Shown here: positions 8,971 to 45,453 of the stretch, one piece after another
Layout: each line of letters begins with the position of its first letter
Position numbering within the stretch: the first letter of the stretch is position 1
The notes under the pieces: generated by a model
Told to the model about the DNA's origin: nothing
What the model saw: only the letters and a program-made list of their open reading frames with translations
Database searches by the model: none
Translations under genes and position numbers: made by a program
Source: Puniceicoccus vermicola
Lineage (GTDB): Bacteria; Verrucomicrobiota; Verrucomicrobiia; Opitutales; Puniceicoccaceae
Reading direction: 5' to 3'
DNA length: 64,000 nt
NCBI RefSeq assembly: GCF_014230055.1
Contig: NZ_JACHVA010000101.1
Location: forward strand, 248,001-312,000

Positions 8971-10023
8971 ATGGCCGGAAAATCGACAAGAGTTACCCTG
9001 CAGGATATATCCGACAAGACCGGTTATGGTCGCTCGACGGTTTCGCTGGCGTTGCGGGATCATCCGAGCATCAAGGAATCGACTCGGAAGAAAATTCGCA
9101 GTGAGGCGGAGAAGCTTGGCTATCGACCAAACCCGTTGGTCTCGGTGTTGATGGCACAGCTTAAAGGGAAGCATAAAGATTATCGTGAGACGATTGCAGT
9201 CTTGGTAAAGACCGCGTATGTTGCCGAGCAGATGACAAGTGCGAGCCCGTTTTACGGGATGCTATACGATTCGATTAAGAAAAAGGCGGCCGAACAAGGA
9301 TTCAGTGTCGACCTTTTCTGTGCTGATGAGTTGGGCGTGTCGGCGAGTCGGCTGAGTCGGATTTTTTTGTCCCGGGGAATTCACGGGGTGCTGATTTTTC
9401 CCGGTGGATCTACGGCTTCTGGGGAGCGCTTGGATATTCAACTGGACTGGCAGTATTTCGTCTCGGTTCTGGTGGGCTTTAACGGGAACTATCAGGAGCT
9501 GAATCAAGTGGTTCCAGACTACACCTATGATGTGAATATTGCGATCGAGATGTTGCACCGAAGCAATCGAGAGCGTGTGGGGTTTGCGATTCCGAAGAGC
9601 CGCAATCGGGGTTCGGATTATAACTGGATGGCTCGTTTTCTTCTTTATCAGCGGGAGCTTCCGGTGCGTCGGAGGATTCCGTTTGTCCCGGAAAAGGGGA
9701 GCGATTTTGGGAAAGAAGAATTCCTGGTATGGTTCCAGAAGCATACTCCGGACACGTTGTTGGTCGCGGGCGATGAAGTGCGAAATTGGCTCGAGGAGGC
9801 TGGGGTTTCCATTCCAGATGATGTTCGCCTGATCAATTTGGTGAAGCGGGGTGAGGCCGGTTTAGCGGGAATCGATCCGCAAACTTCCGAGGTTGGGGGC
9901 GCTGCGGTGGAATTGTTGATTTCGCTTTTGCAGAGCAATCAGTATGGGATCCCTCAATATCCTCGGACGATAGCGGTGAAGGGAGCTTGGAATCCGGGGA
10001 AGTCCTTTCCCGAACACTCATAG
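8971..10023 (+). CDS. LacI family transcriptional regulator
   Basis: A 350-residue LacI/GalR-type repressor. The N-terminal helix-turn-helix reads VTLQDISDKTGYGRSTVSLA followed by the hinge-helix region RPNPLVSVLMAQL. The rest is a periplasmic-binding-protein-like effector domain (GVLIFPGG, NLVKRGEAGLAGIDPQ). It would bind a sugar effector and control nearby genes. It is divergent from the secreted lyase (start at 8838) across a 132-bp gap that holds TATTCGTTCAAAT near 8891, similar to other candidate operators in the window. The next gene starts 83 bp downstream on the same strand. Confidence 0.93.
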   Translation: MAGKSTRVTLQDISDKTGYGRSTVSLALRDHPSIKESTRKKIRSEAEKLGYRPNPLVSVLMAQLKGKHKDYRETIAVLVKTAYVAEQMTSASPFYGMLYDSIKKKAAEQGFSVDLFCADELGVSASRLSRIFLSRGIHGVLIFPGGSTASGERLDIQLDWQYFVSVLVGFNGNYQELNQVVPDYTYDVNIAIEMLHRSNRERVGFAIPKSRNRGSDYNWMARFLLYQRELPVRRRIPFVPEKGSDFGKEEFLVWFQKHTPDTLLVAGDEVRNWLEEAGVSIPDDVRLINLVKRGEAGLAGIDPQTSEVGGAAVELLISLLQSNQYGIPQYPRTIAVKGAWNPGKSFPEHS

Positions 10024-10106
10024 GCTTTAAGTTTACTCGTCACAATTGAACGGGTGCAGAGATCAGCCTGTTGCATCCGAGGGAGTAAATCCGAGGTTGT
10101 GGGGTC

Positions 10107-11453
10107 ATGTCAGCGCCTCTCTGTCCCTCGAATTCCACCTCCGCACAACGGAGTCCCCACATTCTGTTGCGGTCCTCATGGCAGGCCGTCAATATCGGCG
10201 ATATCGGTCACACGCCGGGAGTCCTTCACTTGTTGGAGATGTATTTTCCGGAGGCCCGCGTCACTCTTTGGACGAATCTGGAGGATGAGCGAGCTCTGCA
10301 GGAGCGATTCCCTCAAGTGGAGTTGATCCGCGGAGAGCTTGATGAAGCGGGCACGCATTCAAACCCGGATCTCCAGCGGATCTTTCGGGAGGCCGATTTC
10401 CTGCTTCATGGATCAGGTCCCGGAATTGTGGCCCGAGACGATTTGGTTGCCTGGTCGGCAATGACGGGCAAGCCTTACGGAATATTTGGCGTTACGGTTG
10501 ATCCTCTGACGATTCCGGCAGAGGATGAACGAGGACCTGGAGAGGGAGGGAGTTTAGCGGAACAGCAGAAGCAGGTGGATGGTCTTCCTTCCTCGGATCT
10601 CTCGGAAAAATTGCGGAGAATCCTCAATGGGGCGGAGTTCGTTCTCTGCCGCGACTCTCTCAGTCTTCGGTATTTGCGCAGTCAGGATCTTTCGTGTGAG
10701 GTCTTGGATTTTACTCCCGATGGTGCTTTCGAGATCGACCTAAGGGAGGAGGAGGAAAGCGAGCGCTTTCTTGTCGGGAATCAATTGGAGAGCGGGCGCT
10801 TTCTCGCCGTTATTCCGCGATTGCGATATACTCCCTATCACAAAATCCATCGCCGGACTCCGACGGGCCGTGATCTTCGAGGAGCGAAGGTCAGTGAACG
10901 GTATCGGAAACACGATTTCGATTTGATGCGAGAGGTTGTGATTCGGTGGGTTCGAGAGACGGGAAGAAAGGTGCTGATCTGTCCGGAAATGACCTATCAG
11001 GTAGAACTTGGCCGGGAGGAGATCGTGGACCGACTGCCGGATGATGTTCGCTCTTCCGTGGTCTGGTTGCCATATTTCTGGTCTCCGGGGATGGCTTGCT
11101 CGGTCTATGCTCGATCAGAGGCGGTCCTGAGTATGGACAACCATTCGCCAATCTTTGCACTCTCGGTAGGCGTCCCTACGATTTTTCTTCGTCATGCGAC
11201 GGATACGATTAAGGGTCAGATGTGGCCCGATATCGGAATGGACGACTGGTTCTTTGAGATGGATGAGACCTCCAGCGACGAAGTCGTGGAGTGTCTTTTG
11301 AAGATCCACCAAGACCGTGAATCGGCCCTCCGGTTTGTGAATGAAATTATGGTGCGGGTGCGAGAGGGACATCGCCAGTCGATGGCGATCGTGAGAGAGA
11401 AGGTTCTCGAAAGCTCGACGGCAGCTCCGGTTGAGAATCATCAGAATGTTTGA
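10107..11453 (+). CDS. Polysaccharide pyruvyl transferase family protein
   Basis: A 448-residue protein with features of the polysaccharide pyruvyl transferase family: an early NIGDIGHTPG glycine-rich loop, LLHGSGPGIVARDDL, a CRDSLSLRYL segment (as in 'RD-S' signatures of the family), and a late stretch LSMDNHSPIFALSVGVPTIFL. Family members add ketal pyruvate to sugars in exopolysaccharides, but many distant members have other or unknown roles. No signal peptide is visible, so it is likely cytoplasmic. It lies 83 bp after the LacI gene and about 175 bp before the three-gene operon. The role here is uncertain: it may modify the cell's own polysaccharide rather than take part in catabolism. Confidence 0.65.
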   Translation: MSAPLCPSNSTSAQRSPHILLRSSWQAVNIGDIGHTPGVLHLLEMYFPEARVTLWTNLEDERALQERFPQVELIRGELDEAGTHSNPDLQRIFREADFLLHGSGPGIVARDDLVAWSAMTGKPYGIFGVTVDPLTIPAEDERGPGEGGSLAEQQKQVDGLPSSDLSEKLRRILNGAEFVLCRDSLSLRYLRSQDLSCEVLDFTPDGAFEIDLREEEESERFLVGNQLESGRFLAVIPRLRYTPYHKIHRRTPTGRDLRGAKVSERYRKHDFDLMREVVIRWVRETGRKVLICPEMTYQVELGREEIVDRLPDDVRSSVVWLPYFWSPGMACSVYARSEAVLSMDNHSPIFALSVGVPTIFLRHATDTIKGQMWPDIGMDDWFFEMDETSSDEVVECLLKIHQDRESALRFVNEIMVRVREGHRQSMAIVREKVLESSTAAPVENHQNV

Positions 11454-11628
11454 GTTCCGGCATATCCCCAGTGGGCTTCAGAGAATGGTTCAGAATATCT
11501 CATGGATTCTCTGCTCCGGAGTGAACCTGCGACGGGTTCGGCGATGTTGAACTTTGTCCTGCTTGTTTGATTCTGAAAAATACCTGAATTTTACTGTTTT
11601 CTGTTTTAAACTCTTTTTACCCCTTTCG

Positions 11629-14427
11629 ATGACTACCTCTTTGCTCTCTTCTCGTGCGGTACCGCGTTGTTTCCTCGCGAGCATTTTTTTCTTCTCTGGG
11701 TGTCTGCTGTCAGGGAGAGCGGAAGAATTCATGGAAATGAAGAAGGACCTATCCTTGCGCCAAACGGCAAAAATCGTCTCGCAACCTGGTGGAGTCCGCG
11801 GGGTGGGGATGTTGATCGAGTATCCAGCGCCTGGTCCTCAGACGATGGAAGTGCGTTGGAGTACGTCGAAGCCGAGGAATGAGACTTATCCTCCAATCAC
11901 TCTTGTTCGGGTGTTCTCGCCGAGCGGAGATCTCGTGGCTTTTCACGAATTCCCCGGCGATGAGAGCGGGATATTTGAAGCGGATTTGCCGATTCCAGAA
12001 GGGAGTGGGGGGATTTGGAGGATTTCTTTTTCAGGAGGGCGGTCTGGGGATTTGGTCGAAATCTGTGCTCCCAAATCCGATACTTGGGGAGTGCGGGGTG
12101 AGATGGGCCTGGGGGTGACTCCAGAAATGCCGCGTCCTGGTTATGTTTGGGTGCCGCCATCAGCCGAGGGTTTTCTGGTCGCTTTGGAATCAGGAAGCCC
12201 ACGGGGATTCCGAATTCTGACCGAAGCAGGCGAAATTCTCACTGAGGGTATCCGGGAAGATTCTCCTCGTGGCATTGGCCGGGTGGAGGTCGATTCTCCA
12301 GAGCTGGATTCTGTGGTTCAGGTCGTTGTTCCAGAGCAATTTGCGGGAGGCCTGTTCTTTGAGGGGGTTCCCGGTTTGATCTGTCCTACCCCCGAAGCGG
12401 CGGAGCGCCTGAAAGGAGGATTGGTCGAGAGCCACGGGATCTGGGTCGGTGGACCCCTGCAGGCCCGGGCGCGTGACTGGATGGTTCGTCAAAGTGGAGA
12501 GATTGGGAATCCGAATCTTGATTTTTCAGAGATTGATCCTGAGGCGTTGGAAGAACCTCGATGGGACGCATTGGCTTATGGAAAATACGGTCCGATCAAT
12601 AATCTGGGGGGGATCCTCGAGGCGCAAAATCGGAACCTTGATCCTTCAAGTCCCTGGTATGGGATCAGTGCTCCTGACGGCTACCTCGAAGGGGAACCTA
12701 CTTGGCAAAACTTTCGTTATACGAAGCGGTTGGCCTGGATGGACGCGTCGGCTATCGCTTCCGCCGTCGCGTTCGATTCCGAGGGGAACCCAGCGTATGG
12801 CAATGAAGAGTTGATCCGGAGAGCCACTTTGTTCGCATTTTTCCACATCGCTTCGATGCAGGGAGATGATCTTCTGCGCGATAATGACTTGTATGAAACG
12901 ACTCATCCGATCGTGCTCACTTTCTTCATCTATCCGGGAGCTCTTTCTCAAGCATACTGGGAGTTGGAGCCATGGCTCTCTCCGGAGGTTCGTTCGATCT
13001 GGAAGCAGGGGATGATGGCGGTTGGAGACAAGTCGGCCGATTTTACCGGTTATATGTCCAACCAGTGGGCACATATGATGAGAGGGCATCTGGAGGTCTT
13101 TCTTGCGACCGGAGAGGAGCGTTTTCTTGATTACTTCGAGAGAATGATGACCGCGTATCTGGAAGGGGCACACGGCGTGAATTCGAATTTTGGACAGCAT
13201 CCGGCGGGTTACTTTCTAGAGAACGGTGGACCGGACGGGAACTATGATCGGCTGAACACCTATTGCTTGGTGTCCTCCTATTGGGAATACCAAGAGTTGC
13301 CTGAAGCCGATCCTGAGATTGTGGATATGATGCGGGAAGGGATTGAAAAGAACTTGGAGTTTCGAAAGTTCTTTTGGCTTCCTCAGCCTTCCGGCCGTTT
13401 GCATTCGCCCACTTCGATGAATTGCCGAACTCAGGGGCCGTTCGCGGGGAACGGATATCCGGGAGATATGATGAGCCGGTCGGAATTTCCGCTTGGCGCG
13501 GCCCGCTTCGATCTCGTGAAAGGCAGTGAAGACGACGAGCCCGGGGAGGCATGGACGTTTTCCTATCTTGCAAAAAGCGATGGGCAGGCCGTGAATGTCA
13601 TCAAAGAGGGAATACGTCGCGGGATCCATGCCGAGGCTCCCGGGAAGTCTGCCCGGGGACTCTGGCTGCCTTATTTGGCCCAAGCTTTCTCCTTGCCGGA
13701 GAAGGTCGGGGCAGCCTCCTTGCCGTTTGAAGAAAACGATCGAGTTTGGGATCTTCCGGGGCTTTTCGCTTGGAATCTGAATCGCATCTACGGAGTCGTT
13801 TTCTATGAGGTGCCCGGTTCGACGCGAGATCTGGGGCTGCTGGCGGGGGGCGGACCGACTGTGCTCTGGAGTCCGGAGGTCGGCACTTTCCTGGCGTCGA
13901 TGCAGCCTTCGAGTCCAGTTGCCAATCGAGCCGTCAAGAATGCCAAGGATTTCACCTTTAGCTGTGTGTATCGAGAGACGGCGACCGGATCCCTTGCCTA
14001 CAATGCACAAGAGCCGGTCGGGAGGGCGGAGACGAGCGGTGAGAACTTGACCGAATTCGTTTCCCGGTTGGGAGAGGACACCGATCTGCGGTGGAACTAT
14101 CAAGAGGAGCCGGATGGTTTGAGACTTGGTGTGTCGTTGGAGACGAAAGGAAGTTCGGATGACAATCGATTGAATCTGCCGATTCTGGTCTCGGAAGAGG
14201 CAAGAGTGCGAATCTCGGAGGATCGGTCATCGCTGAGTTTTCACCGGGGATCGGGGCGAGTCCGGATTTCCTGGAATTCCGATCAATCCGGAATCCTGGA
14301 AACGTCGGCGTTGAAGGAAATTCGAAGATTGGTGATTCCCTTCCCGCGGGACGGGGAGCCGCTGACGCTGCAATTTGCGGTGGAGGATGAATGGGGCGAT
14401 GAACCTCAAAGTGAAGCTGCGCCATGA
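11629..14427 (+). CDS. Secreted protein with alpha-toroid domain (polysaccharide lyase-like, unassigned)
   Basis: About 932 residues from ATG 11629; a TTG at 11554 would add 25 residues before the signal peptide. The N-terminus is a signal peptide (CFLASIFFFSGCLLSGRA) with possible SPI cleavage after GRA; the SGC is only a poor lipobox. Residues about 40-300 are beta-rich. The middle (about 350-650) is helical with aromatic and His motifs such as YMSNQWAHMMRGHLEVFL and NSNFGQHPAGYFLENGGPDG, typical of (alpha/alpha)6 toroid lyases or hydrolases. The C-terminal 250 residues are beta-rich. I do not recognise a specific family. The stop overlaps the start of the next gene by four bases (ATGA), so the two are translationally coupled. 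Confidence 0.72.
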   Translation: MTTSLLSSRAVPRCFLASIFFFSGCLLSGRAEEFMEMKKDLSLRQTAKIVSQPGGVRGVGMLIEYPAPGPQTMEVRWSTSKPRNETYPPITLVRVFSPSGDLVAFHEFPGDESGIFEADLPIPEGSGGIWRISFSGGRSGDLVEICAPKSDTWGVRGEMGLGVTPEMPRPGYVWVPPSAEGFLVALESGSPRGFRILTEAGEILTEGIREDSPRGIGRVEVDSPELDSVVQVVVPEQFAGGLFFEGVPGLICPTPEAAERLKGGLVESHGIWVGGPLQARARDWMVRQSGEIGNPNLDFSEIDPEALEEPRWDALAYGKYGPINNLGGILEAQNRNLDPSSPWYGISAPDGYLEGEPTWQNFRYTKRLAWMDASAIASAVAFDSEGNPAYGNEELIRRATLFAFFHIASMQGDDLLRDNDLYETTHPIVLTFFIYPGALSQAYWELEPWLSPEVRSIWKQGMMAVGDKSADFTGYMSNQWAHMMRGHLEVFLATGEERFLDYFERMMTAYLEGAHGVNSNFGQHPAGYFLENGGPDGNYDRLNTYCLVSSYWEYQELPEADPEIVDMMREGIEKNLEFRKFFWLPQPSGRLHSPTSMNCRTQGPFAGNGYPGDMMSRSEFPLGAARFDLVKGSEDDEPGEAWTFSYLAKSDGQAVNVIKEGIRRGIHAEAPGKSARGLWLPYLAQAFSLPEKVGAASLPFEENDRVWDLPGLFAWNLNRIYGVVFYEVPGSTRDLGLLAGGGPTVLWSPEVGTFLASMQPSSPVANRAVKNAKDFTFSCVYRETATGSLAYNAQEPVGRAETSGENLTEFVSRLGEDTDLRWNYQEEPDGLRLGVSLETKGSSDDNRLNLPILVSEEARVRISEDRSSLSFHRGSGRVRISWNSDQSGILETSALKEIRRLVIPFPRDGEPLTLQFAVEDEWGDEPQSEAAP

Positions 14428-17400
14428 GAAAATTCGCCTTCGAAACTTGGGGTCGCGACTCGGATCCCGACCCTCGCAGAGGGTTTGCTCTCATTACGGC
14501 CCTCGGGATGATGGGACTGATGCTGCTCCTTTTGGTCACGCTTTACACGCACCTCAACGTGGAGGTGCGGACTTCTCGAGGTGATCAATCGATTCGTTCC
14601 GCGCGTGAGAATACCATCCTTTCTCTTTCGGTGGCCTTGGGTCACTTGCAGAAATTTACCGGCCCGGATCAGGCGGTCAGTGCGCGTTCGGACCTGATCA
14701 AAGGGGATGATCCCGCGAATGATAATTTACCGGATTATTGGACGGGAGTTTGGGATGAAAGTGGGGCGGTTCAGACTTGGCTGGTAAGCGGAAATGAAGG
14801 CGATCTGCCGCTGGAGTGGAATCCGGTCAGTGGTGGAATAACCTTTGCCGCTGGGGAATCCGCAGTTCTCGTGACGGAGACGGAAGCGGGGCAAGGGGAC
14901 GAAGTAGTCGTTCCGCTGCAATCGATCCTTGAAAATGGAGAGGATGCGGGTTCGTTTGCATTTTGGGTGGGCGATGAAGGAATCAAAGCCAAGGTGAACG
15001 TAGTCGGACGCGCCTCGCAGGGGGCGATCAATGAAGGATTGTTGTATCCTCAGGTTTTTGGAATTCAGGAAATGCGTGATCTGGGCTGGTTCGATCCGGA
15101 GGCGACGAAGACAAGGGACCTTGTCGGGCTGGAAGAAGTTGAGCAATGGGCGACGACATTCGGGCAGGATGAGGTGTTGCCACTACATTTCCATAATCTG
15201 TCGGCTCATGGTCACGGAGTTCTGGCCGATACGGTGAGGGGCGGTTTGAAAAAGGATCTTACCGCGGGTTTACGGCCGGGGGCTGCGGATGGACCCAGTG
15301 GTTCGATTTTTGGCCCCCAGCTGGATGACGCCCCAACCCTGAGGGATCCGGGAGGACCGGCTTGGAGTCAATTGGAGTCGTGGGTGCAGGCTTCCTACGC
15401 GACTGGGAATTCGCTGCCGGTTCGGGCTTCGACCGATACTTCGGTGGGCTTTTTCCCTGTATTGGCGGGATTTCAGAACTATCTTTTTCCGACCTTTAAT
15501 CCGGACGGGACAGTCGACATGCACATGTCTCCAGCGGTCGTTCTGTGGAATCCCTATGATCGACCGCTCGAGCTCACGGATTACGTGATACGGGCGGGGA
15601 GGTCCTCGAGTTTGACCCTGAACGCAGGGTTGGTGGATCTGGCGGATTTTTTCAATAACTGGTATCTCCGCCTGCAGTCGGGTGAAGACGGGGATGGCGA
15701 TCCCGTATACGAGTATCTTCCGGGATCCGGCGAATCAGGTTCTTTCTCCCCGACTCGGTATGAAATGAGATTTACGCCAGAACGAGAGCCCTTAGTCTTT
15801 CGGATTCCGGGAGTGGTTTTGGCTCCGGGAGAGTCGAAGGTATTCAGTCCGGATGCAGGGCACGAAGCATACGCCTTCGAAGGCGATCCGGGAAGCAATG
15901 ACTTGGTGGAAGGTTTTCGTCCCGGTTGGAGCTTCTATTTCCCCACGGGACGAACCCTGAACACGGATACCGATTCAGGAAGTCAGTACCGTCATTATCT
16001 GACGAGTATCGAGCAGTCGCGAATCCAGTCGATCCAGCTCCGTCGGGAGACGAGCGACGAAGGGGAAGAGGTGTTGGCGGATGTGCTCTACCTGAACTAC
16101 CGCTTTCCGGGAGCCATTGGGGCGCCGGCGGCGGAAATGCGGGCCAAACCATCGATCCCCCTCGCACCAGCCGAGGCAATAGGACCTCGTGTGCTGCGGA
16201 CCTATGTCGAAAACGATACGGATCGACCGCTGGTGGCTCGGGTGAAGTGGTTGGGCAATCACAATCCGCGCGCCTCGACGATGGGGGCAGACCCTCTTCA
16301 TTTTCATACATTCTCCGGATCGGATCTGGTCCGAAATCCTTCGGTGATCAGCATGTTGGAGAGTAATGCCGACTGGCAATTGATTCATGAGAGAACGGAT
16401 AGTCGGGTCCCGGTGGGTTTGTCCGATTTCGGAGTGGTGGAGAACGCGGTGTTGTTTGAAAGCTCTCCGGGCTTTGACAGGCTCTATTCAGTGGGGCAAT
16501 TGATGCAGGCACCTCTCTACCGTTGGAATCCACCGGGGACTGTCCCCACTGATACCATCGATCGGCTCAGATTGAGAAATGATCATGCCCGTTTTGACAA
16601 TCTGATTCCGGCGTATGCGGTCGGGAATAGCGTTGCGGACCCACGAATACCTCTCGATTCGTCCTTCGTGGAGTGGGAATCGTTTCCCCCGGCTTCGGCG
16701 GGATCGTTCGTGGATTTTCAGGGGCTTCACTACGACTATTCCTATTTGCTGAATGAGAGTCTTTGGGATGCCTATTTCTTTTCCACTCTTCCGGTCACCG
16801 GAACCATCGTCCCTGCGAACGGAAGGTTGGTATCCTCTGGCGTCGGGAACGGGGCAATTATCGGAGGTTATTATACTTCGGCTTCGGAACTGATGATAGA
16901 TGGTTCGTTTAACGTCAATTCCACTTCGGAAGAGGCTTGGATCGCACTGCTTTCCTCATTTTTCGGTTCGGATGTAGAACTTCAGTCCGGAGTGACGGAT
17001 CCCGCTGGTGGATCTCCGGGAGTTCCGGTCCTGCGGACTGAAATCCCGGTCGGCTCCGCGGTCGACGGAGCTTACAGTGTTGAGGACGAGGATGCTTACG
17101 ACGGTTACCGGAAGTTGAGTCGGGATGAGATTGCGAACCTTGCCACTGCAATAGTCGATGAAATTGAGTTGCGAGGACCGTTTCCTTCACTTGCGGGTTT
17201 CGTCAATCGGCAACTCGATCCGGGCTTGGGACAAGGGCCACAGTTGAAAGGGGCGCTCGCCGCAGCGATTGACGCTGCAGGCATCAACGATGGACTTCAG
17301 GATATTTCCGTCGAGGCGGAGCCAAGTGGATTCGCGGGGTTCATTGCTGCGGCGGAACGCGGTTGGCGGACGGAGGGAATTCCGGGTTGGTTGACCCAGG

Positions 17401-17696
17401 CGGATCTCTTTGCCCGCTTGGGAAGCGTGCTTTCGGCTAGATCAGATACGTTTCGGATTCGTGGTATGGGCGTGGCCAACAAAGACCTAACCGAGGAGAA
17501 TGCCGTGAAGATGTGGGGAGAGTTGATCGTGCAGCGCGTTCCCGACTTTGTTGATAGTGCGAATATTCCAGAGACTCCCTGGGATGGGAACGAAGCCATG
17601 GTGCGAGGGATTCCAGCACTTAACGAAGTCAATGAGCAGTTTGGTCGAGCCTACCGGGTCGTAGGGTTTCGTTGGTTGGAGGAGGGTGAGTTATGA
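14424..17696 (+). CDS. Verru_Chthon cassette protein A-like giant pilin-related protein
   Basis: A 1090-residue protein with a type IV pilin-like N-terminus: a short charged leader, then RRG-FALITALGMMGLMLLLLV, a membrane span starting at the predicted prepilin cleavage site. The next stretch (SVALGHLQKFTGPDQAVSA) is the hallmark of the Verru_Chthon cassette protein A family (TIGR02600-like), known mainly from Verrucomicrobia and usually encoded with smaller pilin-like proteins B, C and D. Those partners are absent here. The long beta-rich exported part has no enzyme motif I can identify. It is coupled by ATGA overlaps to a secreted toroid protein upstream and a small secreted protein downstream, suggesting the three work together at the cell envelope. 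Confidence 0.78.
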   Translation: MRKFAFETWGRDSDPDPRRGFALITALGMMGLMLLLLVTLYTHLNVEVRTSRGDQSIRSARENTILSLSVALGHLQKFTGPDQAVSARSDLIKGDDPANDNLPDYWTGVWDESGAVQTWLVSGNEGDLPLEWNPVSGGITFAAGESAVLVTETEAGQGDEVVVPLQSILENGEDAGSFAFWVGDEGIKAKVNVVGRASQGAINEGLLYPQVFGIQEMRDLGWFDPEATKTRDLVGLEEVEQWATTFGQDEVLPLHFHNLSAHGHGVLADTVRGGLKKDLTAGLRPGAADGPSGSIFGPQLDDAPTLRDPGGPAWSQLESWVQASYATGNSLPVRASTDTSVGFFPVLAGFQNYLFPTFNPDGTVDMHMSPAVVLWNPYDRPLELTDYVIRAGRSSSLTLNAGLVDLADFFNNWYLRLQSGEDGDGDPVYEYLPGSGESGSFSPTRYEMRFTPEREPLVFRIPGVVLAPGESKVFSPDAGHEAYAFEGDPGSNDLVEGFRPGWSFYFPTGRTLNTDTDSGSQYRHYLTSIEQSRIQSIQLRRETSDEGEEVLADVLYLNYRFPGAIGAPAAEMRAKPSIPLAPAEAIGPRVLRTYVENDTDRPLVARVKWLGNHNPRASTMGADPLHFHTFSGSDLVRNPSVISMLESNADWQLIHERTDSRVPVGLSDFGVVENAVLFESSPGFDRLYSVGQLMQAPLYRWNPPGTVPTDTIDRLRLRNDHARFDNLIPAYAVGNSVADPRIPLDSSFVEWESFPPASAGSFVDFQGLHYDYSYLLNESLWDAYFFSTLPVTGTIVPANGRLVSSGVGNGAIIGGYYTSASELMIDGSFNVNSTSEEAWIALLSSFFGSDVELQSGVTDPAGGSPGVPVLRTEIPVGSAVDGAYSVEDEDAYDGYRKLSRDEIANLATAIVDEIELRGPFPSLAGFVNRQLDPGLGQGPQLKGALAAAIDAAGINDGLQDISVEAEPSGFAGFIAAAERGWRTEGIPGWLTQADLFARLGSVLSARSDTFRIRGMGVANKDLTEENAVKMWGELIVQRVPDFVDSANIPETPWDGNEAMVRGIPALNEVNEQFGRAYRVVGFRWLEEGEL

Positions 17697-18466
17697 GCAG
17701 GGCGTTACGAACTGGGTGGATTCTCGTGTCTCTTCTTCTTTTGGGAGGCACTTTCCTGAGGGCGGAAACTCCGATCGTGGAAGTCAAATTTCAGGTATAC
17801 TTGTTAAGCCAGCCCTCTGCTCGTATTGAGGCCGCGGCACCCGATGATGGGGGAGGGACCCAAATGCGTAGCTATAAGCCGACTGAGATTCTCTATCGGA
17901 ATCCGGGAAAGGATTCGTGGGAAGAGATCGAAGTTTCGGTGGGTCGTCTATCCCGGGAGCTTTTGTATGAAGGCCCGCCTGAGATTTCTCTCTATTGGGG
18001 AGATCCGTCTCGGAGGATGAAACTGGGCGCGGTGCGGGTTCCGGAAGGCGTTCGACGACTGCTCATCCTGATCATGCCAGACCGGAGTAGTGGTCCGGGG
18101 GTTCACCTGATCCCAATCCCATTTTCAGGAAACGAGATCGCCGGCGGGGAGGGTCGTTTTCTGAATCTGGGAACCGAAGACCTCGCGAGCCGCATTGGCG
18201 GAGATATGAAGGTCCTTTCCTTTGGTGAGTCCGTGTCAGTCGATCTGGGACAGGTTCAGGACTTTTATCTTCCTGTACAGTTTGCGGTGATGGATCCTAC
18301 AGGGGGATGGACAGTGAGGCATTCCGAGAAACTGATCGTTCAGCCCGAGTTGGGGTATCTTTTTGTCATCTACAGTGTTCCGGGGCTGCGGGATCGTCTG
18401 AGGATTCTGAAGCTGGAGGTCCCGAAAAGGGCGGATGATTTCAGCCCTTCGGAATCGGTGGGTTGA
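17693..18466 (+). CDS. Small secreted protein of unknown function in Verru_Chthon A operon
   Basis: 257 residues with a clear signal peptide (GWILVSLLLLGGTFLRA) cut near residue 25. The mature part is beta-rich and lacks recognisable motifs. The start overlaps the upstream stop by four bases, making it the third gene of a coupled operon. Its stop is three bases from the stop of the convergent pectate-lyase-fold gene, leaving no space for a separate terminator. It may be a partner of the giant pilin-like protein; this is inferred only from coupling. Confidence 0.75.
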   Translation: MSRALRTGWILVSLLLLGGTFLRAETPIVEVKFQVYLLSQPSARIEAAAPDDGGGTQMRSYKPTEILYRNPGKDSWEEIEVSVGRLSRELLYEGPPEISLYWGDPSRRMKLGAVRVPEGVRRLLILIMPDRSSGPGVHLIPIPFSGNEIAGGEGRFLNLGTEDLASRIGGDMKVLSFGESVSVDLGQVQDFYLPVQFAVMDPTGGWTVRHSEKLIVQPELGYLFVIYSVPGLRDRLRILKLEVPKRADDFSPSESVG

Positions 18467-18469
18467 GGC

Positions 18470-20263
18470 TTAGTTTTCCAAAATAGGTTTTTGGGGCTCA
18501 GCTCGGGCCAGTCGGCGAGACAGCTGGTCCCGGTAGAGAGACTGGGGAACCAAGGTGTCTCCACGGCCTACGCCCTCGACCCAGTCGGGCTCTTTAGTGT
18601 CGACGGAGTCCCTGCGGACTTCGAAGGCGGGGCCACTGGTTCCGATGACATAGCCTTTTCCCGTTTGGTCCGTGTTGATGATGAATGAATTGTCAGGATC
18701 GTACCACGACGGGCGGTATTGTTTGCCAGTGGTATTCCAGATCACGGTTTCGGTGGTGCCGAATCCATGGTCGGGGCCGCGAAAATGAGCCTCGATGATG
18801 CAGCGGTCGACCGTAATGCTGTCCATAAGATTCGCGGGCGAAAGCCACATGTGCCAGTCCGCTCCGATACTATTGGAGAAACTGCATTCCAGGATGACGT
18901 TTCCAGCAGTGGATCGGAATCGATGGGAGATCGGGCGTCGAAAGCGGTCGATACTGGTTTGCTCGACGAGGCAGTCCTGTCCTCCCATTGATATGCCGTA
19001 CCCATTGCCACCGCCGCCGACAAACGCGGTATTCGCTAGATGACACCCCGTGACCGTGATCTGGCGAGACCAGTCGAGGGCGAATCCATTGGAAAGGAGG
19101 TGGACTGCTTCGCGGTTGGATTCGGGGCGGTAGGTGTGGACGTCGCGGATCCAGCTGTTGGCGACATGCTCAAAGTGGATCAGATAGGAAGCATGGAGGC
19201 CGTAGAGGGAGCTGGTTTCGGAGTTGAGAAGCTGTTTCCAGTCTCCGTGTTCGATTCCGTTGCTGAAATAGATCCAATCTTCGACATCGTTGCCACCCGG
19301 TGCATTGCCTTTGCGCGTGGCGCTGTTTGCCGCAATGGAGGGGTCTAGGATCATCCCGATCGAGAGGTGCTCGATTCCCACTTCTTCCAACAGCGGCTGA
19401 ATCTTGAAGATTCTCAGATTGGCGTCTGCCCGAAGATTGGTATGGACGGGAATATCGAAGGTCAGAGTATTCGTTTCCCGCTCGATCCCGATGATCTTGC
19501 GGGGATAGATTTGACCGAGATTCAGTTTCTGCAATCGACTGAAGATTTCTCTGGGAGCGAAGGAATCGATGAACTGTTGGGTGACGTCTTCCCGGATGCT
19601 TACGGTGTCACCGATTGCAAATTTGTCGACATCATCGATCTGTAGCGTTGTTGCTCCCTTCGGGATGTCCTGCTCGAGAGGAGTGGTCTCGGACTTTGGG
19701 ACAAACCAGAGCGGAGGGCCGTTTTGCCGGATCCGAGGCGATACGTGAAAAATGCTCGTGGTCCGCATCATCGGATCATCGTTGAACAGATGGGTCTTTT
19801 TCGGACCCGCTCCACGAACAACGAGGTTGCTGGTTTGGATATGAAATACCGTCCTTTTTCTTCCGTCGATGTATGGGGTTTGCGGGGAGATGCGAAATAC
19901 TCCCTCTGGAATGAATACGACTCCGCCACCAGCTTGGCTTGCGGCTTCAATGGCGCCTTGAATTGCCGTGGTGCTGTCCCGAGTTCCGGTTGGGTCGGCG
20001 AGGAATGGGGCTTCGGTTACGTCGAATACCGGTTCCCGGGAGTTCGCAATGGGGAGAGGTTTTTGGCCGGAATGATAGCCAGCATACGAGAAATCATTCA
20101 GGGAGTATCCATCGAGAAAAACCTTTCCTGGCTCCCAATCGACGGGGTAGAGCTCCGACCGCCATTCAGAGGATGACGATGGGGCGGTGGGTGCATCGGA
20201 TGCAAAGAGAGAGGCAGCAGTGGCAAAGAGGGCCGTAAGGGCGAGTGGGATGGAGGATTTCAT
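18470..20263 (-). CDS. Secreted pectate lyase-fold (right-handed beta-helix) protein
   Basis: 597 residues with a signal peptide (LALTALFATAASLFA). The start of the beta-helix is shown by TRDSTTAIQGAIEAASQAGGG followed by VVFIPEGVF, the N-terminal signature of pectate lyase 3/GH28-related proteins. Later turns contain repeated short beta strands (LVVRGAG, ITVTGCHLANT, CLVEQTSIDRF, VILECSFSN, ITVDRCIIEAHF). Such proteins are polysaccharide lyases or glycosidases; catalytic residues cannot be assigned with confidence. The gene is divergent from an SGNH hydrolase with a candidate operator between them. Confidence 0.8.
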   Translation of the reverse strand: MKSSIPLALTALFATAASLFASDAPTAPSSSSEWRSELYPVDWEPGKVFLDGYSLNDFSYAGYHSGQKPLPIANSREPVFDVTEAPFLADPTGTRDSTTAIQGAIEAASQAGGGVVFIPEGVFRISPQTPYIDGRKRTVFHIQTSNLVVRGAGPKKTHLFNDDPMMRTTSIFHVSPRIRQNGPPLWFVPKSETTPLEQDIPKGATTLQIDDVDKFAIGDTVSIREDVTQQFIDSFAPREIFSRLQKLNLGQIYPRKIIGIERETNTLTFDIPVHTNLRADANLRIFKIQPLLEEVGIEHLSIGMILDPSIAANSATRKGNAPGGNDVEDWIYFSNGIEHGDWKQLLNSETSSLYGLHASYLIHFEHVANSWIRDVHTYRPESNREAVHLLSNGFALDWSRQITVTGCHLANTAFVGGGGNGYGISMGGQDCLVEQTSIDRFRRPISHRFRSTAGNVILECSFSNSIGADWHMWLSPANLMDSITVDRCIIEAHFRGPDHGFGTTETVIWNTTGKQYRPSWYDPDNSFIINTDQTGKGYVIGTSGPAFEVRRDSVDTKEPDWVEGVGRGDTLVPQSLYRDQLSRRLARAEPQKPILEN

Positions 20264-20336
20264 GAACGGGGGTCTGAAAATAGGTTCTTCTCAGAGTTCT
20301 GGCCCGAATTCTTTCTAGCCTCAATCGCCGGGTTTT

Positions 20337-20349
20337 TGAACTCGTTTCA
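20337..20349. promoter_or_regulatory. Operator-like inverted repeat in divergent promoter
   Basis: TGAA-CTCGT-TTCA lies between the divergent pectate-lyase-fold and SGNH hydrolase genes, about 75 bp from each start. It matches the CTCGTT(T)CA core seen near other lyase genes in the window. A LacI-type regulator is the likeliest binder, by inference. Confidence 0.35.
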
Positions 20350-20420
20350 TGGAGCTCACGTGATTTTGTGGAATCAGTGACTTGGTTTTCCGGAGACGGT
20401 TCTTTAGATTCATTGTTTTT

Positions 20421-21551
20421 ATGACCCAATCCAATACTCTTGATTTTGCCGCTTTTGCCAAACGAGCCGAAGCGGGTGAACGTTTAACTGTGACTTTCTT
20501 TGGGGGAAGCCTGACTTGGGGCGCGCAAGCGACGGATCCCCTGAAAACCTCGTATCGCGCCTTGATCGGGAAAAAGATGCAGGAGCGCTATCCGGAGGCC
20601 CATTTTACTTTTGTCGACGCGGCGATTGGTGGAACCGGCTCCCAACTGGGGGCATTCCGCTTGCAGCGCGATGTGCTGGCCCATGAGCCGGATTTGGTCT
20701 TTTTGGATTTTACCGTCAATGATGGGGCCTCGAAGATTCCCGAGGACGATCGGCTCTCCTCCTACGAATCGATCATTCGCAGGATGGTGTCGGCTGGTAT
20801 TCCCGTGGTTCAGATGCTTTTGGCTGTAAAGGTCGATGTGGAGAAGGTCACGGACCGTCCCCTGGACGCCCTTCATCGGGAGATTGGGGAGGCCTACGGG
20901 CTGCCCGTGGGCGACGCGGTCGCGGTGATGCGGGCGGCGGTCAATTCGGGCGAGGTGACTCCGGAGGAGTTGTGGGATTTGCCGTACGATTCGACGCATC
21001 CTGGCGATGCGGGGTATGCTCTCTATGCCAAGGCTGCTTGGGGTGCTTATTCTTCTGCCGTAGAAGAGAAGCGGATTTGTCAGGTCCCAGAGGCGATGGT
21101 GCATACAGACCGTTATATGCGGATCGACCGCTTCCCGCTCTGCACTTTGGAAAATTTGCCGGAAGGCTGGAGCCGGGGAGTCCCACGCCGGGACGCCATT
21201 GCCTTCGACTTCATCTGCTCGCGTTGGATGGACGACTTGGCCATTGCTAGCAGCAAAGAGGGCAAGGCTCCCCAGCCTCTGATGCTTTCGTTCGTCGGGG
21301 AATCCATTCTTCTTTTCGGTGAGGGAACTCAGAGGTCCGGATCTTTTGAAATTCGCATCGATGAAGGTGAGCCGCAGGAGTATCCGACCGTATGCGCGGG
21401 AGGAAGTATGCGCTACTTGCAGATCGTAGCCATGGACCTGAAGCCGGACGTAGCCCACACGATCTCGATCCTTCCAAAGTTGAAGGGAGACGAAGAGCTT
21501 CGATTGGAGAGCGTCTGTATTGCCGGTGGCCAAGTGCTCGTCGACGGGTAG
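20421..21551 (+). CDS. SGNH/GDSL hydrolase (esterase), cytoplasmic
   Basis: 376 residues from ATG 20421; the frame also opens earlier at 20382 but without conserved sequence. SGNH blocks are visible: TVTFFGGSLTWG (nucleophile Ser30), AIGGTGSQLGAF (block II Gly), FTVNDGAS (block III Asn) and DSTHPGDAGY (Asp190-His193). The C-terminal third is an extra beta domain seen in many SGNH proteins from polysaccharide-utilisation clusters. These enzymes typically remove acetyl or other acyl groups from sugars. No signal peptide. The next gene, a GH13 alpha-glucosidase, follows 57 bp later on the same strand. Confidence 0.88.
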   Translation: MTQSNTLDFAAFAKRAEAGERLTVTFFGGSLTWGAQATDPLKTSYRALIGKKMQERYPEAHFTFVDAAIGGTGSQLGAFRLQRDVLAHEPDLVFLDFTVNDGASKIPEDDRLSSYESIIRRMVSAGIPVVQMLLAVKVDVEKVTDRPLDALHREIGEAYGLPVGDAVAVMRAAVNSGEVTPEELWDLPYDSTHPGDAGYALYAKAAWGAYSSAVEEKRICQVPEAMVHTDRYMRIDRFPLCTLENLPEGWSRGVPRRDAIAFDFICSRWMDDLAIASSKEGKAPQPLMLSFVGESILLFGEGTQRSGSFEIRIDEGEPQEYPTVCAGGSMRYLQIVAMDLKPDVAHTISILPKLKGDEELRLESVCIAGGQVLVDG

Positions 21552-21608
21552 GGGCGAGTAAGGCCTCTCGAATAAAGAACTTAAACCCTCTCAAGGATCT
21601 AATAGCAT

Positions 21609-23231
21609 ATGCAGGCAATGGACTGGCTGAAAGAGGCCGTAATCTATCAAATCTACCCTCAGTCCTTCCAGGATACCAACGGGGATGGGATTGGCGACTT
21701 TCAAGGGATCATCAAGCGGCTGGACTATATCCGCAGCATCGGGATCAACACCATCTGGTTGAATCCTTGTTTCGATTCGCCGTTTGGGGATGCGGGTTAC
21801 GATATTCGTGATTTCTATAAGATCGCACCCCGGTATGGCACCGAAGAGGATTTTGAGGAATTGGTAAAGGAGGCGCACGCGCGGGAGATTCGGGTCGTAC
21901 TGGATTTCGTGGCCGGCCACACCTCGATGGACAATCCCTGGTTTCAGGCCGAAGCTGAGAAACCGCATTCGGCGGATTCGAATCGCTACATCTGGAGAAA
22001 TCGGGATTTCGACCCGGCTACCGGACCGCAGAAGGGCGACTTCGTCTCCAATTTCTTTTGGTATCAGCCGGCGCTGAATTTCGGGTATTCCGAGATCACC
22101 GAGCCTTGGCAGGATCCGCTGCACGCCCCCGGGCCGCAGAAGAACCGGGAGGAGATGCGAAAAATTCTCGCCTATTGGTTCGATCGCGGGTGCGACGGGT
22201 TCCGGGTTGATATGGCAGGTTCGTTGGTCAAGCCGCAGGATACTCCCGCGTCGGTTGAGGCAACCAAAGCAATTTGGCAGGAAGTCCGCGCATGGATGGA
22301 TGAGGCGTATCCTGATCGGGTCTTACTCTCCGAATGGAGTTTTCCCAGTCGGTCGATCAATGCCGGTTTCCATCTCGACTTCATGTTGCATTTCAACACT
22401 CCGGGGTATTCGTCCTTGTTTTTCAACGGCAAGGGCACGCTGGCGCCTCCGAAGGATCAGGCCTACTGCTATTTTGACGCCGAGGGGCAGGGGAGTCTCG
22501 ATGTCTTTTTGAAATCGTACTCCGAGCAGCGGGAAGCAACCCGAGGCAAAGGGTTGATCACCCTCCCGGTCGGCTGTCACGATTTTCAGCGTCTGCGGTG
22601 CGCCCCCCGAGGTTGGGATGAGCTGCGGTGTGCCTGGGTGTTCTTTATGACCCAAGCCGGACCGCCGACCATTTACTATGGTGAGGAAATCGGGATGCGC
22701 TTCGTCGAAAACCTGGAGCCAAAGGAGGGATCGACCTTAGCCGGAATTACTGCGGTCAACGCCGGAACGGATCTCGGGGAACGCGCCGGGACGAGGACGC
22801 CGATGCAATGGGATGATTCGAAAAATGCGGGTTTCTCCACCGCTCCTGCCGAGCGGTTGTATTTTCCTATCGATCCCGACGAGGACCGACCGACCGTGGA
22901 GTCACAGGACAAGGATCCCAATTCCCTGCTCAATTTTGTCCGTGAACTGATTCGTCTCCGCAAGGCAAACCCTGTGCTGGGAACCGATGGCGAGTTTACC
23001 TTTTTGAATACAACCGAGCAGCATTATCCTTTCGCCTATTTGCGCGAGTTGGATGGCGCGCGTTGCCTCGTCGTTATCAATCCATCTCGGCACGCGCGCT
23101 CGGTCGATCTCAGGGTCGCGGGAGAGCCCTGTGAGGTTCTTCTGGGTCAAGGATGTGTCTGCGAGCGTCATGGTGAATCCCTCTCCGTTACGGTCGCAGG
23201 ACATGGATTCGGGATCATTCCGTTGCGCTGA
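21609..23231 (+). CDS. GH13 alpha-glucosidase / oligo-1,6-glucosidase-like
   Basis: 540 residues, normal for the oligo-1,6-glucosidase type of GH13. The opening WLKEAVIYQIYPQSFQDTNG and GIGDFQGI are diagnostic. Catalytic residues: nucleophile Asp201 in DGFRVDMAG, acid/base Glu242 in LLSEWSF, and Asp325 in GCHDFQ. The third motif usually reads NHD; here Asn is Cys, an unusual change next to the transition-state Asp. The calcium-type loop DTNGDGIGD is present. It should cleave alpha-linked glucose oligosaccharides in the cytoplasm. Met at 21618 could be the real start. The stop is followed within 50 bp by the hairpin repeats. Confidence 0.92.
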   Translation: MQAMDWLKEAVIYQIYPQSFQDTNGDGIGDFQGIIKRLDYIRSIGINTIWLNPCFDSPFGDAGYDIRDFYKIAPRYGTEEDFEELVKEAHAREIRVVLDFVAGHTSMDNPWFQAEAEKPHSADSNRYIWRNRDFDPATGPQKGDFVSNFFWYQPALNFGYSEITEPWQDPLHAPGPQKNREEMRKILAYWFDRGCDGFRVDMAGSLVKPQDTPASVEATKAIWQEVRAWMDEAYPDRVLLSEWSFPSRSINAGFHLDFMLHFNTPGYSSLFFNGKGTLAPPKDQAYCYFDAEGQGSLDVFLKSYSEQREATRGKGLITLPVGCHDFQRLRCAPRGWDELRCAWVFFMTQAGPPTIYYGEEIGMRFVENLEPKEGSTLAGITAVNAGTDLGERAGTRTPMQWDDSKNAGFSTAPAERLYFPIDPDEDRPTVESQDKDPNSLLNFVRELIRLRKANPVLGTDGEFTFLNTTEQHYPFAYLRELDGARCLVVINPSRHARSVDLRVAGEPCEVLLGQGCVCERHGESLSVTVAGHGFGIIPLR

Positions 23232-23586: not shown

Positions 23587-24453
23587 TCATTCCCGCAGCT
23601 GGCTCGATTGACGAAAGTCTTTCGGCGGGCGATTGAACAGTTCTTTGAACTGTCGGCTGAAAACAAACGGATCCGGATATCCGAGTTCTTCGGAGACTTC
23701 GGCGACATTGAGATGAGTGTTTTCCAGAAGCGTCCGTCCGTAGATTAGGCGCTGCTGGACCTGATAGGTCTTCGGAGAAACTTGAAACCGCTTTTTGAAT
23801 TCCTGCGAAAAATACTTGGGGGACAATCCCGCCCGAGTGGACAGAGCCTGGAGATTGTCCCGCTCCAAGGGATGGTCGGCCATCCAGGTCGCTACTTGTT
23901 GAATCCGGTTTTCGACGGAATCGTGATTCGTCTGCAGTGTCCTTTGTTCATGGTCTAGCTCGAAGAGAATCGTGCTGGCGTAGGAAGTTGTGAGATCTCT
24001 GTGTTCTTCGCCGAGGGTCATCTGGCATCGTTGGAGCCCTTCGAAGAGTTCCTCAAAGTAGCTGCTGCGAAGGGTTTGGCAGACTACCGAAAAAGGCTTT
24101 CCCAGCCACGGACTCATTTTGCCGGTATGGTTGTCGTATCGGCAAAAGCGAATGGGTCTGATTTGAGGGGGGTCATTGGGGTCTTGGATCCCGGAATAGG
24201 GGACTCCATTGGTCAGAAAGACCACCAAGCCCCGTTTGAGCGGATAGTCCCGATCCCCTACGCGGTAGGTGCCTTTGCCGCCGCAGACGAAGAGCAGGTG
24301 AAAATCCTCGATGATCCGTCGCTGGATCCGCCATTGAGGGGGGACAACCAGTTTCCGTCCGATAGTCGTGAACCGAAAATGGTTCTGGCCCGGGACCGGA
24401 GACAGGAGGCGGAGGAGATTGTCCTCAGGCTTATCTGTAGGCGATTTTGTCAT
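23587..24453 (-). CDS. AraC family transcriptional regulator
   Basis: A 288-residue AraC/XylS regulator. The N-terminal half is a cupin-like sensor domain (RRIIEDFHLLFVCGGKGTYR). The C-terminal double helix-turn-helix is clear: LQALSTRAGLSPKYFSQEF and VAEVSEELGYPDPFVFSRQF, ending in the usual PPKDFR. It is divergent from the sulfatase gene across about 90 bp and probably activates it in response to a sugar. A short repeated element in the shared promoter region supports this. Confidence 0.93.
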   Translation of the reverse strand: MTKSPTDKPEDNLLRLLSPVPGQNHFRFTTIGRKLVVPPQWRIQRRIIEDFHLLFVCGGKGTYRVGDRDYPLKRGLVVFLTNGVPYSGIQDPNDPPQIRPIRFCRYDNHTGKMSPWLGKPFSVVCQTLRSSYFEELFEGLQRCQMTLGEEHRDLTTSYASTILFELDHEQRTLQTNHDSVENRIQQVATWMADHPLERDNLQALSTRAGLSPKYFSQEFKKRFQVSPKTYQVQQRLIYGRTLLENTHLNVAEVSEELGYPDPFVFSRQFKELFNRPPKDFRQSSQLRE

Positions 24454-24485
24454 GAAAATACCGGATTATGCCATTCAAATCGGTT

Positions 24486-24512
24486 TCATGGAATCATATA
24501 CTGTCATGGAAA
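24486..24512. promoter_or_regulatory. Direct repeats in AraC-sulfatase divergent promoter
   Basis: TCATGGAAT at 24486-24494 and TCATGGAAA at 24504-24512 are direct repeats spaced 18 bp apart, between the divergent AraC and sulfatase genes; a weaker match (TCATGAAAA) overlaps the AraC start. They are candidate AraC-type binding sites by position only. Confidence 0.35.
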
Positions 24513-24543
24513 TTTGATTTTGAACCCAGACAATCCTGCAGTT

Positions 24544-25965
24544 ATGACCAAGAAATTACCCAACATCGTCTTCTTTTTTACCGACGACCAACGCTTCGAT
24601 ACCATTTGCGCGTTGGGGAACGGTGCGATTCAAACCCCACATCTCGATCAGTTGGTCGAGGAAGGTTGCTCCTTCACACAGGCGCATATCCCGAGTGGAA
24701 CGAGCGCGGCGGTCTGTATGCCGAGCCGCGCAATGCTCAATACAGGGCGGACTTTGTACCACTTGGAAGGCTCGGGGCAGAGTATTCCTCTCGATCACAC
24801 AACCCTCGGGCAAGCCCTCCGCTCTAATGGGTATCGTACTTTTGGGACCGGCAAATGGCACAATGGTCGCGAATCCTTCAATCGATCTTTCAGCGATGGC
24901 GATGAAATCTTCTTCGGAGGGATGAGTGATCACTGGAATGTGCCGGCGTACCATTACGATCCCACTGGCAAATATGACACGCAGTTGCCCATCATCCGCA
25001 ATCCGGGACAATCCCGGGAGGTTACCTATCGGCAGTGTGATCATATCAACAGTGGCCAACATTCTTCTCAGTCGGTCTGTAATGCCGCCATTGATTTTAT
25101 CGAGAGTCACGAAGGAGATGTTCCCTTCTACAGTTACATCTCCTTTCTCGCTCCTCACGATCCCCGGTCGATGCCACAGGAGTTTCTGGAAATGTACGAT
25201 CCGGATGAGATTGAGCTGCCGCCCAACTTTCTCGGGGGTCATCCCTTCGACACTGGGCATCTCAACATCCGCGATGAGATGTTGGCCTCATTCCCACGTC
25301 GTCCAGAAGAGGTCCGTCAGCACCTCGCCGAATATTATGCGATGATTACGCATTTGGACCATGAACTCGGCCGGGTGATCGAGACTCTAAAAAAGAAGGG
25401 AATCTACGAGGACACGATTCTGGTCTTTGCCGGCGACAACGGACTCGCCCTCGGCCAGCACGGTCTCTTCGGGAAGCAGAACTGTTACGAACACAGCGTT
25501 CGTGTCCCATTGATCTTTGCCGGGCCGGGAGTTCCCCAAGGAAAGCAAACGGAAGCCTATGCCTACCTGATGGACATCTTCCCGACCCTATGCGATCTCA
25601 CCGGGATTTCGATCCCGGAATCCGTGGAATCCAAAAGTCTTCTCCCAGCGATCACCGGAGACGACCGCATTCGCGATGGATTGTTTTTCGGCTACGAGAC
25701 CTTTCAGCGGGCCTACAAGGATCGGCAGTTTAAATTGATCGAGTATGTCGTCGACGGGAAGCACATTCAGACGCAGCTCTTCGACCTGAAGAACGACCCC
25801 TGGGAAATGACGAACTTGGCCGAGGCGGCGGATTGTCAGGATAAAGTCTCCACGATGCGACAGAGCCTGATCGCAAGCGCTGAGGCCTGGGACGACCCAG
25901 AACACGACAAGGGTAAGCCCTTCTGGGATTCCTACCCGTTTCAGTCATCAAAGGTAGGGGAGTAG
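24544..25965 (+). CDS. Sulfatase (S1 family, formylglycine-dependent), no signal peptide
   Basis: 473 residues from ATG 24544; the longer upstream frame overlaps the AraC gene and is not conserved. Starts directly with NIVFFFTDDQRFDT, the metal-binding strand of S1 sulfatases. The formylglycine motif is C58-M-P-S-R in AAVCMPSRAMLNTGR, with FGTGKWHNG, ISFLAPHDPR and FAGDNGLALGQHG as later active-site segments. Conversion of Cys58 to formylglycine by a maturase is needed; none is encoded here. With no signal peptide the enzyme should remove sulfate from sugars inside the cell. The stop codon lies inside a terminator-like hairpin. Confidence 0.93.
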   Translation: MTKKLPNIVFFFTDDQRFDTICALGNGAIQTPHLDQLVEEGCSFTQAHIPSGTSAAVCMPSRAMLNTGRTLYHLEGSGQSIPLDHTTLGQALRSNGYRTFGTGKWHNGRESFNRSFSDGDEIFFGGMSDHWNVPAYHYDPTGKYDTQLPIIRNPGQSREVTYRQCDHINSGQHSSQSVCNAAIDFIESHEGDVPFYSYISFLAPHDPRSMPQEFLEMYDPDEIELPPNFLGGHPFDTGHLNIRDEMLASFPRRPEEVRQHLAEYYAMITHLDHELGRVIETLKKKGIYEDTILVFAGDNGLALGQHGLFGKQNCYEHSVRVPLIFAGPGVPQGKQTEAYAYLMDIFPTLCDLTGISIPESVESKSLLPAITGDDRIRDGLFFGYETFQRAYKDRQFKLIEYVVDGKHIQTQLFDLKNDPWEMTNLAEAADCQDKVSTMRQSLIASAEAWDDPEHDKGKPFWDSYPFQSSKVGE

Positions 25966-35879: not shown

Positions 35880-35911
35880 AAGCATATGCAAACTGCAGTT
35901 TACCTCCAAAA

Positions 35912-36541
35912 ATGAAGACGCTCAAATCTCCGCAAGGATTCTCTCTGGTCGAACTTTTGGTTATTCTTGTGATTCTTGGAATTCTCGCCGCCATTCTCTT
36001 CCCTGTTGTCCGCAGTTCGGTAGCTAACAGTCGATCGAGTCGATGCATGTCGAACCTGAGGCAACTTGGATCGGGAGTTCAGCTCTATGCGAATGACCAT
36101 CGGGGTTTGTTCCCTGCGAATACAGGTTCAAAAGATTCTCCTTTCCTTTGGGAACAGAGAGTAGCTCCTTACGTAGGGATTGATTTTCTGGGACCCGTCA
36201 ATCAAGGAAAGCTTCCTCCAGACCCGTTTTCATGTCCGGAAGAACATGATATGACCATGACCGGGAGCCATCGCTCTCACTATTCCAAGAACATCGAACT
36301 GAACGGAAGCCCCTCTAGGACTGTGAAAGTCACCCAGATTCCCTATCCTGAGAAGACCTTCCTCCTCGCCGACTCTTTGGTTCGAGATATGTCTTACCTC
36401 TACGAGAGAAGCTTCGCTCCAAGGCATGATGGGAACGCGAATGTGATCTTCGTGGACATGCACGTCGAGTCTTTGGATCCCGCAAAGATCAACCGAAAGT
36501 ACCGCGAACTGCCTCTATATCCTTTTGGGGAAATCAATTGA
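35912..36541 (+). CDS. Prepilin-type pseudopilin with H-X9-D motif
   Basis: 209 residues from ATG 35912. The 9-residue leader ends in Gly before the cleavage site, then FSLVELLVILVILGILAAI, a type IV prepilin methylation signature. The C-terminal part has RHDGNANVIFVDMHVESL, matching the H-X9-DG processing-associated domain except that Gly is Met. An ATG at 35876 overlaps the glycosidase stop and would give a 21-residue leader; the 9-residue form is preferred because the paralog at 45454 has the same leader length. It lies directly after the giant glycosidase gene, as does a similar pair elsewhere in the window. Confidence 0.88.
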   Translation: MKTLKSPQGFSLVELLVILVILGILAAILFPVVRSSVANSRSSRCMSNLRQLGSGVQLYANDHRGLFPANTGSKDSPFLWEQRVAPYVGIDFLGPVNQGKLPPDPFSCPEEHDMTMTGSHRSHYSKNIELNGSPSRTVKVTQIPYPEKTFLLADSLVRDMSYLYERSFAPRHDGNANVIFVDMHVESLDPAKINRKYRELPLYPFGEIN

Positions 36542-45394: not shown

Positions 45395-45453
45395 CAAGTC
45401 GCTTGAGACGTATAGATTTCTACCGCCGCCCGTATACCCAGCATACATACCCC

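Follow-up and report, generated by a model that had tools for sequence, protein, structure and literature searches.

The region analyzed, referred to below as the window, is the whole 64,000-nucleotide stretch G000:C101:248001-312000 from the draft genome (5.2 Mb) of Puniceicoccus vermicola. Three open reading frames on its + strand, each with in-frame start and stop codons and with similar GC3 values (0.58, 0.58, and 0.57), are joined by two 4-base ATGA overlaps, and their coordinates and frames agreed with the original prediction of a coupled gene trio. The second and third genes are hereafter called A and S, and the features of the region are as follows, in window coordinates.

8971-10023, + strand: LacI-family regulator upstream (PF00356 match at G000:C101:256995-257132, window 8995-9132)
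11629-14427 (alternative start 11554), + strand: gene 1, the "toroid" protein; secreted, 932-957 aa; variable neighbor outside the conserved unit
14424-14427, + strand: 4-base ATGA overlap of gene 1 and A
14424-17696, + strand: A, giant GspK-like minor pseudopilin, 1090 aa (reading frame, AF2 model, GspK/XcpX structure matches, paralogue family)
14424-14483, + strand: prepilin-like leader of A, ending in DPDPRRG|F (from the sequence)
14481-14660, + strand: N-terminal hydrophobic/pilin helix of A, about aa 20-79 (helix predicted at 19-79; profile matches)
15447-16103, + strand: Ig-like beta-sandwich insertion in A, about aa 342-560 (lamin Ig matches only, Z 5.2-5.6; overlaps the most variable part of A)
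16902-17693, + strand: C-terminal GspK-like core of A, aa 827-1090 (motifs FNVNSTS, RGPFxSLAxFVNR, and RSDTFxIR...ExxVQR; family alignment)
17693-17696, + strand: 4-base ATGA overlap of A and S
17693-18466, + strand: S, small secreted partner, 257 aa, with a signal peptide and two beta-sandwich domains (reading frame, AF2 model, position after A)
24001-25965, + strand: sulfatase in the same neighborhood (PF00884 match at G000:C101:272559-273608, window 24559-25608)

No Pfam family matched gene 1, A, or S; gene 1 also had no NCBIfam or PDB match, and its PDB sequence search returned nothing above noise. The pilin-like character ascribed to the 1090-residue protein was confirmed by its prepilin-like N-terminus (RRG|FALITALGMMGL). 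The G|FALxxxL prepilin motif was kept in nearly all copies of A in this genome with a readable N-terminus and in most relatives, with leader lengths differing between copies. Glu5 was absent from every own copy with a readable N-terminus, and glutamate occupied position 5 in 0 of 76 relatives; GspK, which forms the tip of pseudopili in type II secretion, is characteristically without Glu5. The further assignment of A to the Verru_Chthon A type was rejected, as the profile search with TIGR02600 (Verru_Chthon_A) gave 13.9 bits where 332.3 are required, over no more than aa 20-80. Relatives of A reached at most 30.3 bits with this model, always N-terminally, and the genome-wide search yielded no match above the cut-off, true TIGR02600 proteins being absent from the P. 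vermicola genome. The Verru_Chthon B, C, and D pilins are indeed missing beside A, as had been noted, with no small pilin frame among the neighbors at 8971-23231; weak, sub-cut-off matches to the Verru_Chthon D model fell on pilins ~18 and ~28 kb from A. Against the GspK model NF037980, A scored 15.9 bits (cut-off 130) over roughly the same stretch as its TIGR02600 match, and its relatives scored up to 27.3 bits, always N-terminally; the genome's own ordinary GspK likewise remained below that cut-off (38.1 bits), and PF03934 (T2SSK) had no match over its cut-off anywhere in the genome. Profile-profile comparison related the N-terminal helix of A to GspK (P 6e-6) and, weakly, the C-terminus of A to that of GspK (P 0.006, compared with 0.55 for the S control), and a PDB sequence search with the A profile returned no match.

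Structure prediction of the single proteins, which had been suggested along with the original prediction, gave an AF2 model of A with a pLDDT of 81.7 and a pTM of 0.86. Its best match was GspK of ETEC (3ci0_K, 238 of 280 residues at 3.3 Å, model residues 49-1087) with a Z of 8.8, a modest value for a 1090-residue model, followed by XcpX of P. aeruginosa (5vtm_X, Z 8.5, 221 of 259 residues, model residues 57-1087). GspK and XcpX were each covered to ~85%, and the next unrelated fold reached only Z 5.6; with Foldseek alone, GspK was third-ranked at a weak E of 0.47, and outside the N-terminal helix the sequence likeness to GspK is weak. Because the structural match covers residues 49-1087, the likeness extends beyond the pilin helix, and the possibility that it merely reflects a common pilin helix was ruled out. 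Judging from the predicted model, A is a greatly enlarged GspK-type fold, into which hundreds of residues, including the Ig-like region, are inserted. Conservation is concentrated in the N-terminal helix and the last third of the protein, with mean column identities reaching 0.57 in the core at the two termini, and aa 391-660 are mostly variable (0.10-0.15 at aa 391-450 and 481-600).

The AF2 model of S (pLDDT 88.3) comprises two beta-sandwich domains, and its best match was the tandem Ig-like extracellular domain of PepT2 (Z 12.9), a common fold that is uninformative on function; a PDB sequence search with S returned nothing above noise. Locating S at the A loci by a profile search over all open reading frames, we found it directly downstream of A at 24 of 26 testable copies in this genome, directly upstream at one of the remaining loci (L024), and ~5 kb away at the other (L028); S was not seen at a copy lying at a contig edge (L031). 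In other genomes, S lay directly downstream in 66 of 78 testable A copies (64 inside the gap limit and two, L065 and L116, in which a reading frame extended too far at its start had masked S), nearby in three, and was absent from nine, mostly in named Akkermansiaceae. The loci without detectable S (L069, L076, L098, L106-L109, and L112, with a tandem pair at L076) carry mostly Akkermansiaceae-type A, and there the partner may have been lost, have diverged, or have been replaced. The pairwise distances of A and S were correlated both within the genome (r = 0.72, reached by 0 of 5000 shuffles, none of which exceeded 0.39) and across genomes (r = 0.72). The conserved pairing and the co-variation of distances suggest, at the level of sequence, that A and S function together. 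Gene 1 showed a different pattern, as a relative, and only a partial one, was present at just one other of the ~108 A loci examined, and the genes upstream of other dyads were different or none. Thus, the predicted conservation of the three-gene order was not observed, and the conserved unit is the A-S dyad of genes 2 and 3. Of the coupled envelope complex that had been envisaged, the coupling of the giant pilin-like protein to its accessory protein is supported, and a conserved complex that takes in the upstream enzyme-like protein is not.

By manual count, the genome contains 28 A loci, comprising 25 full copies, a truncated one, and two that are interrupted by the end of a contig. The truncated copy, without the C-terminal part, lies beside mobile-element-like genes (G000:C101:363970-365199, L037:3920-5227). 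Contigs break inside near-identical A genes at both ends of C106, at the start of C107, and at the end of C123, and recent A duplicates probably fragmented the assembly; the A copy number is therefore approximate. Matches to A were found in 96 of 387 genomes and 43 of 197 genera of the phylum, with up to 37 candidates in one genome (in that search, two candidates per genome were scored), and the relatives came from Opitutia, Puniceicoccaceae, Akkermansiaceae, and Kiritimatiellota. In a quick tree, the 25 own copies fell into 22 separate clades interleaved with those of other genomes, on which ground a recent lineage-specific expansion was rejected; the own copies are not the product of a recent burst.

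The dyads are located among sulfatases, LacI regulators, and glycan enzymes, which are enriched ~3.5-4-fold. Within 10 kb of A we counted 23 of 61 sulfatases (6.0 expected) and 18 of 52 LacI regulators (5.1 expected), the p-values presuming an independence that clustered genes violate; viewed from A, only 11 of 30 places had a sulfatase and only 14 of 30 a LacI regulator within this distance. A Pfam census of 149 A neighbors recorded 14 LacI and 13 sulfatase proteins, and neither was among the listed families with at least two members in 120 control proteins from hand-picked loci elsewhere in the genome. We found no link between A subfamily and common neighbors (Spearman 0.03, not significant), and the neighbors mostly differed even between loci with ~60% identical A proteins. 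Since similar A loci mostly do not have neighbors in common, strict substrate specificity was not supported. There is one clear exception, in that L014 and L110 (the latter from another genome) flank the dyad with the same five neighbors, sulfatases included, and this dyad is a good candidate for a single-substrate test. On the downstream side of the L010 dyad, one reading frame encodes an unusual peptide repeat (AIAISTDWRSEKG...), which may reflect an array of DNA repeats. Elsewhere in the window, PulG-like pseudopilins (N_methyl plus DUF1559-like) occur at 35876-36541 and 45403-46164 in glycan-enzyme operons, the first overlapping the gene for a 1352-aa CBM9/CBM4_9 protein by 4 bases.

A single T2SS operon (at C118) encodes the secretin GspD, GspE, GspF, a GspI-like protein, and another minor pseudopilin, along with a GspK of the ordinary kind (350 aa) that is collinear with NF037980 along almost the whole of its length (E 1.3e-9); the operon contains no A-S dyad, and the tip subunit is normally encoded by one gene per system. 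PilB/PilT-type ATPase genes are present at C40, and the genome has only two TonB plug loci. In published work, SusCD was not found in Verrucomicrobiota genomes, and how these bacteria take up and process polysaccharides without it was stated as an open question (PMC8857213). Our literature search, with many subscription papers outside its reach, met no description of a giant GspK-like protein or of an A-S dyad.

We give even chances to the proposal that the A-S dyad is a replaceable GspK-type pseudopilus tip module of polysaccharide loci, working with one T2SS (or type IV pilus) apparatus common to them. It builds on the computed GspK-like fold, the conserved dyad, the A-S co-variation, the glycan-locus context, the complete T2SS, and the scarcity of TonB receptors, from which we infer that A is processed, sits at the tip, and takes part in exporting enzymes, in assembly at the surface, or in binding glycans. 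Under this proposal, many polysaccharide-degradation loci would carry their own dyad. The prepilin peptidase would cut A at G|F, A would cap a short pseudopilus made of shared pseudopilins, and the variable insertion of A, together with S, would project at or through the secretin. There, insertion and S could bind the target glycan or else the enzymes of the locus, which would thereby be exported or assembled at the surface, so that substrate and enzyme would be concentrated at the cell surface. A bolder version, which we regard as rather doubtful, is that the dyads are exchangeable, locus-specific tips of a shared T2SS-type pseudopilus and fill the role of the SusCD-like surface module that Verrucomicrobiota polysaccharide loci lack; they would select glycans or enzymes and might help glycans to enter through the secretin.

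Two other arrangements deserve weighing. In the first, A and S are an adhesin at the tip of a type IV-like pilus, serving solely to fasten cells to glycan-rich particles and having no share in enzyme export. The variable insertion of A would suit binding, the PilB/PilT-type ATPase genes exist, and Akkermansiaceae have been proposed to attach to glycans by means of a type IV-like pilus, MUL2 (PMC13174399). We consider such an adhesin improbable, however, as the best fold match of A is the T2SS tip GspK and the dyads adjoin degradative enzymes and regulators, not pilus genes. Alternatively, the helix may stay in the inner membrane as an anchor, with A outside any filament and A-S organizing glycan processing in the periplasm, where Verrucomicrobiota are said to accumulate glycans (PMC13174399). 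The varying leader lengths are consistent with this scaffold, and the cleavage site of A is a predicted one, but the widely kept prepilin motif and the retained GspK fold speak against it, and we judge it unlikely. The view that A belongs to Verru_Chthon_A and that this giant pilin is part of a fixed complex of three proteins, the toroid enzyme among them, draws on the ATGA coupling in the window and on the 65 N-terminal columns that A has in common with true TIGR02600 proteins in profile-profile comparison (P 1e-11, with little else in common), but is very improbable given the far sub-cut-off score, the missing conservation of gene 1, and the occurrence of true TIGR02600 proteins in only 4 of 194 phylum genomes.

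Like protein A of the Verru_Chthon cassette, A is giant, pilin-like, from Verrucomicrobiota, and similar over the first 65 residues; it differs in having no B, C, and D neighbors, a far wider distribution, and the S partner, and in its low TIGR02600 score. Numerous pseudopilins are also reported from another member of the Opitutales, Verruconatronum alginivorum, in which a pulG-like pseudopilin (67 homologues) lies inside an alginate-upregulated gene cluster and another pseudopilin was also over-expressed, in single-replicate proteomes (PMC13274419). These proteins are of the PulG type and not of the GspK type, and the accessible text does not describe the dyad; the PulG-like pseudopilins in our window are possibly of the same type as the 67 copies (PMC13274419). 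The MUL2 locus of Akkermansia resembles the A-S system in tying pilus-type machinery to glycan use in the same phylum, whereas it is a single locus whose MUL2A has been compared to a type IV pilin, and the text consulted describes no giant GspK-like protein. By analogy only, A-S resembles SusCD of Bacteroidota loci as a multi-copy two-gene unit that marks glycan loci with their own regulators; its proteins are unrelated to those of SusCD, however, the unit has no TonB receptor, and any transport by it is hypothetical. The dyads may help to explain how complex sugars are handled without the transporters used by other bacteria, and a GspK-like tip protein that is duplicated widely, lacks annotation, and is paired with a cognate partner is a concrete candidate for polysaccharide use by Verrucomicrobiota without SusCD. 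The closest counterparts are GspK and XcpX (3ci0_K and 5vtm_X), with which A has in common the long N-terminal helix, the lack of Glu5, the whole GspK fold, and collinear C-terminal motifs; in contrast to them, A is 3-4 times longer, carries Ig-like and other insertions, and occurs in ~28 scattered copies outside the gsp operon, paired with S. If the proposal is correct, the A family would represent a large diversification of the T2SS tip subunit.
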